This document shows, in pieces, positions 56,738 to 63,169 of a stretch of DNA of 64,000 nucleotides. A program made the translations under genes and the position numbers. The stretch lies in contig CATOSZ010000003.1 in assembly GCA_951812805.1 (NCBI GenBank), positions 512,557-576,556 on the forward strand. The letters are read 5' to 3'. Under the pieces are notes generated by a model. The model was not told the origin of the DNA. It was given only the letters and a program-made list of their open reading frames with translations, and ran no database searches. The DNA is from an uncultured Alphaproteobacteria bacterium (GTDB lineage Bacteria; Pseudomonadota; Alphaproteobacteria; GCA-2731375). How positions within the stretch are numbered: position 1 is the first letter of the stretch; each line of letters begins with the position of its first letter.

Positions 56738-57496
56738 ATGGACTTGCAGTTGAACGGCAGAACCGCCCTGGTGACCGGGGCGAGCATCGGCATCGGCGTG
56801 GCGATCGCGCATGAACTGGCGGCGGAGGGTTGCCGCCTGGCGATCCTGGCCCGGCGCGAGGGCCTGTTGAACGGCGTCGCGGACGCAATCGCCGCGACCG
56901 GCGCGCCCCGCCCGCTGGTCGTCGTCGAAGACCTGACCGCGGACGGCATGGCGGCGCGCGTCGGCGCCCGCATCGAGGACGGGCTCGGCCCACTCGACAT
57001 CCTGGTTAACAACGCGGGCGGCAGCCGCCCGATGGACGGCCTCGGCACCGAAGACGAATGGTCGGAGGCCATGATGCTCAACTACATCTCCGCCCGTCGC
57101 CTGGCGCATACCTTCGTGCCGGGCATGCGACAGCGCGGCTTCGGGCGCATCGTCAACGTCACCGGCGGGGACGAGCCGGCGGGCATGAACGCGGCGGTAC
57201 CGCCGAACGGCGCCATCCATCTCTGGGCCAAAGCCCTCAGCCGCGAGGTCGGCGGCGACGGCGTCACCGTCAATTCGATCCCGCCCGGCCGCATCCACTC
57301 CGAACAGATCGACCAGCGCCTGCTGCCGACAGCGGCGGCGCAGCAGGCCTGGGTCGACGCCAACTGCCCGGCCGGCTATATCGGCGAGGCGGAAGATCTC
57401 GCCGGGCTGGTGGCCTTCCTGGCCTCGCCCCGGGCGCGCTATATCACGGGTCAGGTAATCCATGTCGACGGCGGCGCACGACGCTACGCCTTCTGA
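56738..57496 (+). CDS. SDR-family protein with altered catalytic residues
   Basis: The protein is 252 aa. The cofactor motif is TGASIGIGVAIAHEL and NNAG is LVNNAGGSRPMDG. The catalytic region departs from the classical scheme: Ser is in VNVTGGDEPAG (no SS), and the Tyr position of YxxxK reads HLWAK (NGAIHLWAKALSRE), so Tyr is His and Lys is kept. The C-terminal GQVIHVDGGARRYAF is normal. It may have a shifted mechanism, a non-catalytic role or a different substrate. It lies directly upstream of the nitrile-hydratase-like genes. Confidence 0.82.
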   Translation: MDLQLNGRTALVTGASIGIGVAIAHELAAEGCRLAILARREGLLNGVADAIAATGAPRPLVVVEDLTADGMAARVGARIEDGLGPLDILVNNAGGSRPMDGLGTEDEWSEAMMLNYISARRLAHTFVPGMRQRGFGRIVNVTGGDEPAGMNAAVPPNGAIHLWAKALSREVGGDGVTVNSIPPGRIHSEQIDQRLLPTAAAQQAWVDANCPAGYIGEAEDLAGLVAFLASPRARYITGQVIHVDGGARRYAF

Positions 57497-57507
57497 GGAG
57501 GACGGGA

Positions 57508-57837
57508 ATGACGACCAATCGGGCGATCAGCGATCTCGGCGGCCTGCCCGCGGGACCGATCGACACGCACGAACACGAAGCCACCCTGGTGGAACGGCGC
57601 ATCGACGCCATGATGATGCTGCTTCGCGCCAAGCCCCGGGCCTTCTGGGTGACCGACGAGAACCGTCGCACCATCGAAAGCCTGACGCCGGAATTCTACG
57701 AAGGCTCCGCCTACTACGAGCGTTGGGTGACGGCAATGCGGGCCCTGTTGATCGAAAAGGGCGTGCTGGACGAAGCCGAGATCGAGGCCAAGCTCGCCGA
57801 AGTGCGTGCCCGGTACGCGGCGGGAGGTGCAGCATGA
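57508..57837 (+). CDS. Nitrile hydratase beta-subunit N-terminal part (separate gene)
   Basis: The protein is 109 aa. It matches the N-terminal half of the NHase beta subunit: a DLGG-like start (RAISDLGGLPAGPIDTHEHE) and the helical segment YYERWVTAMRALLIEKGVLD, followed by an Ala-rich end. The corresponding half is a separate polypeptide in thiocyanate hydrolase and in three-subunit NHases. It overlaps the next gene by 4 bp (ATGA), so stoichiometric synthesis is expected. ATG 57508 has GAGGACGGGA upstream. Confidence 0.78.
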   Translation: MTTNRAISDLGGLPAGPIDTHEHEATLVERRIDAMMMLLRAKPRAFWVTDENRRTIESLTPEFYEGSAYYERWVTAMRALLIEKGVLDEAEIEAKLAEVRARYAAGGAA

Positions 57838-58118
57838 GCCGCTTCGCGGTCGGCCAGCGCGTCCGCGTCGCCGAGGCGCAGCCGCCGGGCCATGTCCGCA
57901 CGCCGCAATTCCTGCGCGGGCGCGACGGCGTCGTCCTGCGTCATTTCGGCGCCTTCCCCAATCCCGAACGGCTGGCCTACGGCATGGACGGCCGGCCGGC
58001 CCTCGACCTCTATCAGGTGCTGTTCACCATGGACGAGGTCTGGGCGGGCGAGGGCGCCTATGCGCCCCGCGATACGGTGACCGCGGACATCTACGAAAGC
58101 TGGCTGGAGGCGATATGA
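57834..58118 (+). CDS. Nitrile hydratase beta-subunit C-terminal part (separate gene)
   Basis: The protein is 94 aa. It matches the SH3-like barrel of the NHase beta C-terminus: FAVGQRVRVAEAQPPGHVRT, RGRDGVVLRHFGAF and YQVLFTMDEVWAGEGA. It supplies the second part of the subunit that covers the metal site of the alpha subunit. It overlaps both neighbours by ATGA junctions. The layout N-half, C-half, alpha is like scnB-scnA-scnC of thiocyanate hydrolase. Confidence 0.8.
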   Translation: MSRFAVGQRVRVAEAQPPGHVRTPQFLRGRDGVVLRHFGAFPNPERLAYGMDGRPALDLYQVLFTMDEVWAGEGAYAPRDTVTADIYESWLEAI

Positions 58119-58765
58119 GCACGCACACCCACGATCATGACCATGATCACGACCACACCACCTTCCAGCCCGACATCAAGGACCCCTCGCAGGAGTGGGA
58201 GTTCCTGGAGATCGCGCTGCGCGAGCTGCTGATCGAAAAACAGATCCTGAGCGCCCGCGAGATCGCCGACGAAATGGAGGCCTGGGAGCGGAAGTCGCCC
58301 GAGGCCGGCGCCCGGGTCGTCGCCCGCGCCTGGTGCGACGACGGGTTCCGCCAACGTCTTCTGGCGGACGCCAACTCCGCCGTCGCCGAACTCGGCGTCG
58401 AAATCGAATCGGTCGAGCTGATCGCGGTGGAGAACACGGCGGACCTGCATCACATGGTGGTCTGCACGCTCTGTTCCTGCTATCCGCGCGGCCTGCTGGG
58501 GGTCCCGCCGCTCTGGTACAAGAGCTTCGAATATCGCAGCCGCGCGGTGCGCGAGCCGCGCGCCGTCCTCGCCGAATTCGGCACGGAACTCGCCGATTCG
58601 GTCGAGGTTCGCGTGCTCGATTCGACCGCGGATTGCCGCCACCTGGTGATTCCCGCCCGGCCCGCCGGCACCGAAGGGCTGAGCGAGGACGCGCTCGCGG
58701 CGCTGGTCGGCCGGGACAGCTTGATCGGCACGGCGCTGGCCCGTGCCCCGCACGGGGAGGCGTGA
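58115..58765 (+). CDS. Nitrile hydratase / thiocyanate hydrolase-type metal subunit with His/Asp-rich N-terminus
   Basis: The protein is 216 aa. The claw-setting motif [14 protein letters not shown] is present: two backbone amides and three Cys that in the family are oxidised to sulfinate and sulfenate. Thr in CTLCSC marks the cobalt-type form. Further conserved are [20 protein letters not shown] and [11 protein letters not shown]. The N-terminus has alternating His and Asp ([14 protein letters not shown]), which could bind cobalt and replace a separate activator. The family hydrates nitriles to amides, or hydrolyses thiocyanate. The substrate is unknown; the operon context suggests an organic cyano compound. 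Confidence 0.85.
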
Positions 58766-60668: not shown

Positions 60669-61525
60669 GCGGCGCGGGCCGGATCGCCGTCATCGGCTCC
60701 CTCACCCGCGACGAAGTGACGGTGGCGGAGCGGCGGACCCGGCAGTTGGGCGGCGTGGTCTGGCACGCGGGTGCCATCCTCGCCAGCCTCGGCGTCGAAA
60801 CGGCGATCGCCACCTGCCTGCCGGCCGGGGCCGGGGAGGCGCGCGCCGCCCTCTCGACCCGGGGCATCGAACTGCACGACCAGGACGACGTTTCGACGAC
60901 TGACTTCCACAACGATTACGACGCGGCCGGACACCGCACGCAACGGGTCGGCCATGTCGCCCGGCCGATTCGACGGGCCGCGGTGGCGGGCGCGATCGCC
61001 GGCGCCGACATCGTCCATCTCGGCCCGCTGCATCCCGACGATATCGCGGACTCCGCCCTCGATTCCGTTCGCGCCGCGCCGGCCCGCCTGGCCCTGGACG
61101 TCCAGGGCTTCACCCGGGCGATCCGCGACGGCCGCATTGTGCCAGAACTGTCGGATCGCCTCGGCCCGCTGTTGCCGGCCTGCCATGTCGTCAAGGCGGA
61201 CCGGGGCGAAGCGGCGTTGATCGTCGGCTCGGACGACCCCGTCGTCGCCGCCGAACGCTTCGCCGAACGCTTTCCTGGGCTGGAGGTGCTGATCACTTGC
61301 TCCGTCGACGGCATCGTGCTGGCGGCCGACGGCGCGCCGCATCGCCTCGACTGCCGGCCGGTGGAAACCCTGGACCCGACCGGGGCGGGCGACGTCTTCC
61401 TCGCTGCCTATCTGCGCGCCCGGTTGCGCGGCGACCCCCCGATCGCCGCCGCCGGCTTCGCCCTCGGCACCACCGCCGCCGAACTCGCCAACCCCAGCCG
61501 CCTCGTCGAACTCGACCCGACCTAA
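60665..61525 (+). CDS. PfkB-family carbohydrate kinase
   Basis: The protein is 286 aa. The N-terminal GRIAVIGSLTRDEVTV and the second PfkB signature LDPTGAGDVFLAAYLRARLR, with the catalytic Asp, are present. The substrate-contacting DYDAAGHRTQRVG segment differs from ribokinase. It phosphorylates a sugar or nucleoside-like compound with ATP. It ends the long operon and converges with the LLM gene, whose stops overlap by 4 bp. Confidence 0.87.
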   Translation: MSGAGRIAVIGSLTRDEVTVAERRTRQLGGVVWHAGAILASLGVETAIATCLPAGAGEARAALSTRGIELHDQDDVSTTDFHNDYDAAGHRTQRVGHVARPIRRAAVAGAIAGADIVHLGPLHPDDIADSALDSVRAAPARLALDVQGFTRAIRDGRIVPELSDRLGPLLPACHVVKADRGEAALIVGSDDPVVAAERFAERFPGLEVLITCSVDGIVLAADGAPHRLDCRPVETLDPTGAGDVFLAAYLRARLRGDPPIAAAGFALGTTAAELANPSRLVELDPT

Positions 61526-62580
61526 ACCCGGGCGATGACGCGCTCGGCGAGGTCTTCGATCATCCGGTACTGGCGATCGAGGGGGGCGATGAAGTTGATG
61601 GCGTCGAGGCCTTGGGCCTCCAGGTCGCTCAGGCGTTCGACGATCTCTTCCGGCTGGCCGGCGAGACAGAAGGCGCGAATGATCTCCGGCGTGACGAAGC
61701 GGGTCTCTTCGGGATCGAGGTAAGTGTAGTGGCTTTGGTGCAGCGCCTGGTGCCGGGTGCGGGCGTCGCGCGCGGCGTGAAAGGCCAGGTAGTCGTGCCA
61801 GATCGGCTTCACATAGTCGGGCGGCTCCCCGCCGTTCTCCCGGATCCGGTCGACCAGGAAATGCACGTTGGCCATGACGGCGGAGCCGCACGCGGCGACG
61901 ATGCGCTCCGTTTCGAGCGTTTCACCCGGCTGCAACAACAGCAGATTAACGAGCGCGGTGACCTGAAAGTCGGCAAGGTCGCGCCCGGCCCGCGCCGCAC
62001 CCCGGCGCACGTTGGCCAGCGCCTCGGGGATGGTGCCGCCGCGCGGGATCCCGGTGATCAGGCCGTCGCCGAGTTCGCCGGCAAGCGCCTGGGCCCGCGG
62101 GCCGAAGCCGCCGATATGCAGCGGTATCTCGGCCTCGAGATCGAGATAGCCGAGGTCCGGGTTCTGGAAGCGGATCGGCTGGCGCTCGCCGTCCAACTCG
62201 TACTCGACCTCCTCACCCCGCAGAAGGGCGCGGACGACGCGGATGTATTCGGCGAATTCGGCGACCCGGGCCGGCCGACCGCCGAGCGTGCGCATCGCCG
62301 TGTTGCCGGTGCCGAGGCCCATGAAGACCCGACCGGGCGCCAGCCGATTGATGGTGGCGATCCCGTTCGCCGCCACCGGCGCCAGCCGCAAGCCCGGCAC
62401 GGCGACCCCGGTGCCGAGGCGAATGCGCCGGGTCGCCTGCGCCGCCAGCGCCAGAACCGCCCAGGGGTTGGAGCGCAGCATCGGGCTGTCGGTCACCCAG
62501 CAGAAGTCGTAGCCGAGGTTTTCCGCGTGGGTGATCAGGCCGATTTCATCGATCTTGCTGGTGGTGATGCCGAACTTCAT
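61522..62580 (-). CDS. LLM-class flavin-dependent oxidoreductase
   Basis: The protein is 352 aa from ATG 62580, where MKFGITTSKIDEIGLITHAE begins; the frame is open further upstream but without family sequence. The barrel shows ENLGYDFCWVTDSPMLRSNP, TRRIRLGTGVAVPGLRLAPV and APGRVFMGLGTGNTAMRTLG. The C-terminal RAFCLAGQPEEIVERLSDLE is typical. It is the third LLM flavoprotein in 15 kb. Confidence 0.87.
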   Translation of the reverse strand: MKFGITTSKIDEIGLITHAENLGYDFCWVTDSPMLRSNPWAVLALAAQATRRIRLGTGVAVPGLRLAPVAANGIATINRLAPGRVFMGLGTGNTAMRTLGGRPARVAEFAEYIRVVRALLRGEEVEYELDGERQPIRFQNPDLGYLDLEAEIPLHIGGFGPRAQALAGELGDGLITGIPRGGTIPEALANVRRGAARAGRDLADFQVTALVNLLLLQPGETLETERIVAACGSAVMANVHFLVDRIRENGGEPPDYVKPIWHDYLAFHAARDARTRHQALHQSHYTYLDPEETRFVTPEIIRAFCLAGQPEEIVERLSDLEAQGLDAINFIAPLDRQYRMIEDLAERVIARV

Positions 62581-62722
62581 GGGCGGCCGTCCCCTTCCCC
62601 CATCCCCTTCTCGTCGGGCCATCCTACCCCGTCCGCGCCCTTGATGTTTTCCGCCGCCGGAGAAACAATGGCCGCCCGCCGCGCCGGATCCACCGGCCCG
62701 GCCCCACACATGGGAGTTTTCG

Positions 62723-63169
62723 ATGGCGCTGTTGAACGTCTCGGATCCGGCCCCCGATTTCCAGGTCGCCAACCAGGACGGCGACGCCGTCTCTTTGGCG
62801 AGCCTGCGCGGGCGCAACGTGATCCTCTGGTGGTATCCCAAGGCCGACACCCCCGGGTGAACCCGCGAAGGTGAGGGGTTCCGTGATCGAACCCCCGAAT
62901 TCGAGGCCAAGAATACCGTGATCGTCGGCATCAGCTGCGACACACCCGCCGAGAACAAGCACTTCCGTGACAAGTTCTCATTCCCCTTCGATCTCCTGTG
63001 CGACGTCGACAAGTCCGTCAGCCTGGCCTACGGCGCCGTCGACAGCGCGGAGGCGTCACATCCCTCGCGGATCAGCTACCTGATCGACGCCGACGGCAAG
63101 GTCGCCAAGGTGTACAGCAAGGTGGTGCCGGCCGAACATCCGGGCGAGGTTCTCGCCGACCTCGGCTGA
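62723..63169 (+). CDS. Probable selenocysteine-containing peroxiredoxin (BCP/AhpC-TSA fold)
   Basis: The frame encodes 148 residues from ATG 62723 (site GGGAG 6-7 nt upstream) with one internal TGA at codon 46 (62858-62860). The flanking sequence is YPKADTPG-[TGA]-TREGEGFRD, where ordinary peroxiredoxins have the peroxidatic Cys in PGCT. The rest is a complete thioredoxin-like fold: VIVGISCDTPAENKHFRDKF, FPFDLLCDVDKSVSLAYGAV and VYSKVVPAEHPGEVLADL. A 7-bp stem-loop starts 14 nt after the TGA. Reading TGA as selenocysteine gives an enzyme reducing hydroperoxides with higher reactivity. A nonsense mutation is possible but would have to hit exactly this codon. selA, selB, selC and selD are not in the window. 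Confidence 0.8.
62875..62895 (+). promoter_or_regulatory. Candidate bacterial SECIS element
   Basis: GGGGTTC (62875-62881) pairs with GAACCCC (62889-62895) around the 7-nt loop CGTGATC, which contains G residues. The apical loop begins 21 nt after the TGA, within the range described for bacterial SECIS. It lies inside the coding frame, as required. Confidence 0.65.

Follow-up and report, generated by a model that had tools for sequence, protein, structure and literature searches.

A peroxiredoxin gene with an in-frame TGA at the peroxidatic position is very probably a selenoprotein gene

Results

The gene at positions 62723-63169 of the analyzed DNA (hereafter the window, a stretch of 64,000 nucleotides) almost certainly is a functional selenoprotein gene with selenocysteine (Sec) at the peroxidatic position of a peroxiredoxin, as judged from comparative sequence data. 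The reading frame, the TGA at the catalytic position, a conserved RNA element, a complete set of Sec machinery genes, and conservation across the family were all computed; from these results we infer Sec insertion itself and peroxidase activity. The features of the gene were as follows.

62712-62716, + strand: likely ribosome-binding site GGGAG, 6 nt 5' of the ATG, as suggested by reading of the sequence
62723-63169, + strand: gene for a BCP/PrxQ-type peroxiredoxin with putative Sec (U) at residue 46, 148 codons long without the stop (translation, AhpC-TSA match, and 81 distinct TGA sequences)
62837-62860, + strand: active-site motif PKADTPGU (PxxxTxxU) in the translation, with P39 in 81/81 and T43 in 79/81 TGA sequences
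62858-62860, + strand: TGA codon, probably read as Sec, at the peroxidatic position; the same column has TGC in 20 homologues
62875-62895, + strand: predicted bacterial SECIS hairpin, with a 7-bp stem (62875-62881/62889-62895) and the loop CGUGAUC (62882-62888), identified by folding, silent-site constraint, and an alignment with pair counts
63167-63169, + strand: terminating TGA, from the sequence and its translation

The frame opened with an ATG at 62723 and contained TGA twice, once internally as codon 46 and once as the normal stop. The original prediction had placed a single internal TGA at the expected catalytic cysteine, followed by 102 intact codons of family sequence, and both parts were borne out. 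Specifically, the TGA at 62858-62860 replaced the peroxidatic cysteine of PKADTPG(C/U)T, codons 47 to 148 were all sense codons, and the Pfam AhpC-TSA match ran across the TGA (residues 6-129; E 2.7e-33). The AhpC/TSA domain, the PKADTPGU motif, and a fold match to Bcp1 placed the protein among the peroxiredoxins of PF00578/COG1225, in the Sec form with TxxU. Gene callers are likely to lose the active site, as had been anticipated, and the in-frame open reading frame (ORF) 3' of the internal TGA encoded 83 residues that did not include it. Thus, the gene is a clean, genome-backed case of a selenoprotein that is likely to be truncated by gene finders.

A site search around the gene returned no promoter-like or terminator-like consensus site. 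The divergent neighbor (61522-62580, - strand) encoded a luciferase-like monooxygenase (PF00296; E 3.9e-53); were the ORF on that strand to be started farther out, from the TTG at 63012, it would spuriously cover a large part of the peroxiredoxin gene. Elsewhere in the window, at 57462-58765, frames with a CTLCSC motif resembled, by eye, a nitrile hydratase alpha subunit and adjoined a beta-like frame.

A stem-loop lay just 3' of the TGA, and its small apical loop contained G, as in the SECIS elements of bacterial selenoproteins. It started 14 nt after the TGA and paired GGGGTTC (62875-62881) with GAACCCC (62889-62895) around the 7-nt loop CGTGATC (62882-62888). The perfect 7-bp stem and G-containing loop that had been predicted were therefore recovered, though the folding energy was ordinary (z of -0.91 relative to dinucleotide shuffles, with 29/200 shuffles folding as well). 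Because this energy was unremarkable, the hairpin alone constituted weak evidence, and silent-site conservation was used in place of the uninformative shuffle z-score.

The codons that form the hairpin were strongly constrained among the 81 distinct TGA sequences. Gly52 was GGG or GGA in 80/81, and GGA plus GGG made up 30% of Gly codons across the remainder of these genes; Phe53 was TTC in 81/81, relative to 66.5% of Phe codons elsewhere. Of the two arginines, Arg54 was CGT in 80/81 (12.5% of Arg codons elsewhere) and Arg56 was CGA or AGA in 80/81 (9.7% elsewhere). At the same sites, the Cys homologues mostly had CGC where Arg was present, mostly GGC for Gly, and TTT or TTC for Phe. The hairpin was conserved in 80 of the 81 TGA sequences; one TGA homologue (L085) lacked the hairpin sequence and folded otherwise. 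Among 55 aligned sequences, almost all kept stem pairs 19-37 to 24-32, pair 21-35 was G-U, G-C, or A-U in 55/55, and 94.5% of the cells were paired in an outer helix of 4 bp formed by columns 10-13 and 42-45. Covariation was modest, with two pairs changed on both sides, because the stem was nearly invariant. These codon patterns indicate that the hairpin is selected at the RNA level, beneath the conservation of the protein.

Within the window, no Rfam model reached its gathering score and no tRNA was called by ARAGORN, so the Sec machinery was sought genome-wide. The window belongs to contig C3 of a 19-contig, 7.42-Mb genome that is 98.5% complete, with an estimated contamination of 3.2%. A tRNA-Sec was located at C1:681477-681567 (70.2 bits; called tRNA-SeC with anticodon tca by ARAGORN), and selD was located at C1:682991-683887 (285.5 bits; cut-off 125). 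The selA gene (C17:62458-63813; 572.4 bits, cut-off 268) lay just upstream of selB (C17:63834-65723; 446.7 bits, cut-off 242). Other genomic matches to tRNA-Sec, including those at C1:514624 and C5:285089, were weaker, and ARAGORN assigned them to tRNA-Ser, Tyr, Gly, and Leu. Both gene pairs were on contigs other than that of the window, which, given the estimated contamination, counts against the assignment, although G+C content was similar (66-70%). Absence of this machinery would have refuted the original prediction; instead, tRNA-Sec, SelA, SelB, and SelD were all encoded in the same genome. SelB with Sec-tRNA-Sec would bind the hairpin at 62875-62895, just downstream of the UGA at 62858-62860, and Sec would be put in at this UGA instead of termination, yielding the full 148-residue BCP/PrxQ-type peroxiredoxin.

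We searched 61 related genomes and found full-length, close TGA homologues in 13 of them, including the genome of the window; the only in-frame stop in each of these homologues was a single TGA. When named genome contigs were scanned, 80 loci were obtained, with Alphaproteobacteria, Gammaproteobacteria, SAR324, and Gemmatimonadetes among their sources. At position 46, the aligned codon was TGA in 96 matches and TGC in 20. After identical stretches were removed, there were 81 TGA sequences (the window gene and its paralogues included) and 20 TGC sequences, so the in-frame UGA aligned with the Cys of homologues, and the exchange between U and C that had been proposed was seen in a single column. 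All 13 TGA-bearing relatives had a selB over the cut-off, compared to 19/61 overall (Fisher p of 4e-9, with kinship ignored). A tRNA-Sec at E <= 1e-10 was present in 17 of the 61 relatives, among them 11 of the 13 TGA-bearing ones, and of 11 additional genomes of other groups with a TGA copy, 10 had selB over the cut-off. The genomes of the closest TGC forms (L123 and L124; 51-52% identity), whose completeness is not stated, contained no SelB over the cut-off.

Two other explanations for the internal TGA were weighed. Since TGA is one base away from TGC and TGT, the gene might be an ordinary Cys peroxiredoxin in which a pseudogene mutation or a sequencing error had created the stop. We consider this extremely improbable: 81 distinct sequences shared TGA at exactly the same codon with one in-frame stop each, and mean identity to the window protein was 57% before the TGA and 58% after it. 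This recurrence and the similar conservation on both sides excluded decay or error, and two paralogues of the same family in the genome also had TGA at this codon. It is even less plausible that this organism decodes TGA as an amino acid other than Sec, such as Trp. The frame would indeed be open under such codes, but the gene itself ends in TGA at the normal place, its homologues swap the residue with Cys rather than Trp, and the genome encodes tRNA-Sec, SelA, SelB, and SelD. Furthermore, the TGA forms conserved the hairpin sequence, whereas the TGC forms lacked it. Taken with the Sec machinery, the U/C exchange, and the silent-site-constrained hairpin, these observations support the selenoprotein interpretation that was originally put forward.

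In six AhpC/TSA-domain genes of the genome, a single in-frame TGA lay in the region of the active site, which means that the antioxidant capacity of the genome would be under-annotated. Besides the window gene, the following were recorded.

C3:1614362: close paralogue of the window gene with an in-frame TGA
L134:2081-2524 (G000:C3:1911783-1912223): paralogue with the motif PRAFGNNU
C5:488623, C4:286439, and C1:919881 (L187, L188, and L189): three UxxC types with the TGA in WUPYC

The PRAFGNNU paralogue belonged to a PRAFGxxU subgroup (L134 and L158-L163) from seven genomes in three families, in which the nearly invariant Thr of TxxU was replaced by Gly. L134 and L136 had the same SECIS hairpin as the window gene. 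One PRAFGxxU copy (L163:1501-1941, - strand) contained an additional in-frame TAG and is possibly decaying. At two other loci (L058:3481-3915 and L061:3607-4041), the TGA peroxiredoxin was followed immediately downstream by a second copy, in which PKADTPGUT was replaced by PKAGTYGUS.

An AlphaFold model computed with 30 homologues had a mean pLDDT of 96.4. Its best PDB match was Bcp1 of Sulfolobus (3drn; TM 0.89), and other BCP/PrxQ proteins and the 1-Cys peroxiredoxin AhpE were also close. In the proposed cycle, the selenolate at residue 46, activated by P39, T43, and R116, would attack H2O2 or organic hydroperoxides, and the resulting selenenic acid would then be reduced directly by an external thiol (a 1-Sec mechanism). 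Both this cycle and its reductant are drawn by analogy from the chemistry of the family, and a 1-Sec cycle is probable for this protein because no resolving cysteine was conserved. Specifically, the resolving Cys of PrxQ is at +5, which corresponds to position 51. The residue at this position was E in the window protein and C in 10 of the 20 Cys homologues, whereas almost every TGA sequence had N, K, or Q. The protein does have two cysteines, C72 and C93, so it might instead be a Sec-Cys (atypical 2-Cys-like) peroxiredoxin in which one of them resolves the inserted Sec. This seems unlikely, given that neither was conserved (Cys in only 10/81 and 16/81 TGA sequences, respectively) and that the usual PrxQ resolving position was N/K/Q. 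We tentatively raise the possibility that the Sec PrxQ-type proteins of these bacteria are a 1-Sec lineage that lacks the PrxQ resolving Cys, and that the paralogous PRAFGxxU subgroup, with Gly for Thr, differs from ordinary peroxiredoxins in chemistry or substrate. The PRAFGxxU motif was not described in the portions of the Sec peroxiredoxin reviews that were consulted.

Discussion

The window gene belongs to the established family of Sec peroxiredoxins with TxxU, which has been known since 2001, and does not represent a new kind. Two features are less usual, namely that the group has no conserved resolving cysteine and that the genome has six AhpC/TSA genes interrupted by TGA, one of them from the PRAFGxxU subgroup. 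Members of this family (COG1225 Bcp, PF00578) ranked with the most abundant selenoproteins in the Sargasso Sea data, with 43 genes (PMC1088965), and in the GOS data, with 253 sequences (PMC2398784). The domain family, the PxxxTxxU site, and the bacterial SECIS directly after the UGA were the same in those proteins and the one described here, and homologues of the window protein include many marine genomes. We found no difference in kind, the comparison being one of descriptions rather than of sequence identity.

Two reviews list Sec peroxiredoxins and refer to the enzyme described from Eubacterium acidaminophilum in 2001 (PMC9312934, PMC13188914). That enzyme, PrxU (Sohling 2001, cited in PMC13188914), is a peroxiredoxin that has Sec at the peroxidatic position, as in the window protein. 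The score of the window protein against the PrxU model NF040737 (233 positions) was 34.3 bits, far under the cut-off of 270, and thus it is not of the PrxU subfamily.

The Cys BCP/PrxQ proteins (NF006960; PDB 3drn, 5enu, and 5iiz) share the fold (TM 0.88-0.89) and have the motif PxxxTxxC, whereas the window protein has Sec for Cys and lacks the resolving Cys at +5. It was also below the cut-off of the NF006960 equivalog for thioredoxin-dependent thiol peroxidase (106.8 bits versus 140), and it therefore did not qualify as a 2-Cys PrxQ with a resolving Cys five residues on. The fold of AhpE of Mycobacterium tuberculosis, a 1-Cys Prx (1xxu and 4x0x), was likewise close (TM 0.85-0.88). AhpE differs from the window protein in having Cys rather than Sec and in belonging to a different sequence subfamily, but it works without a resolving Cys.
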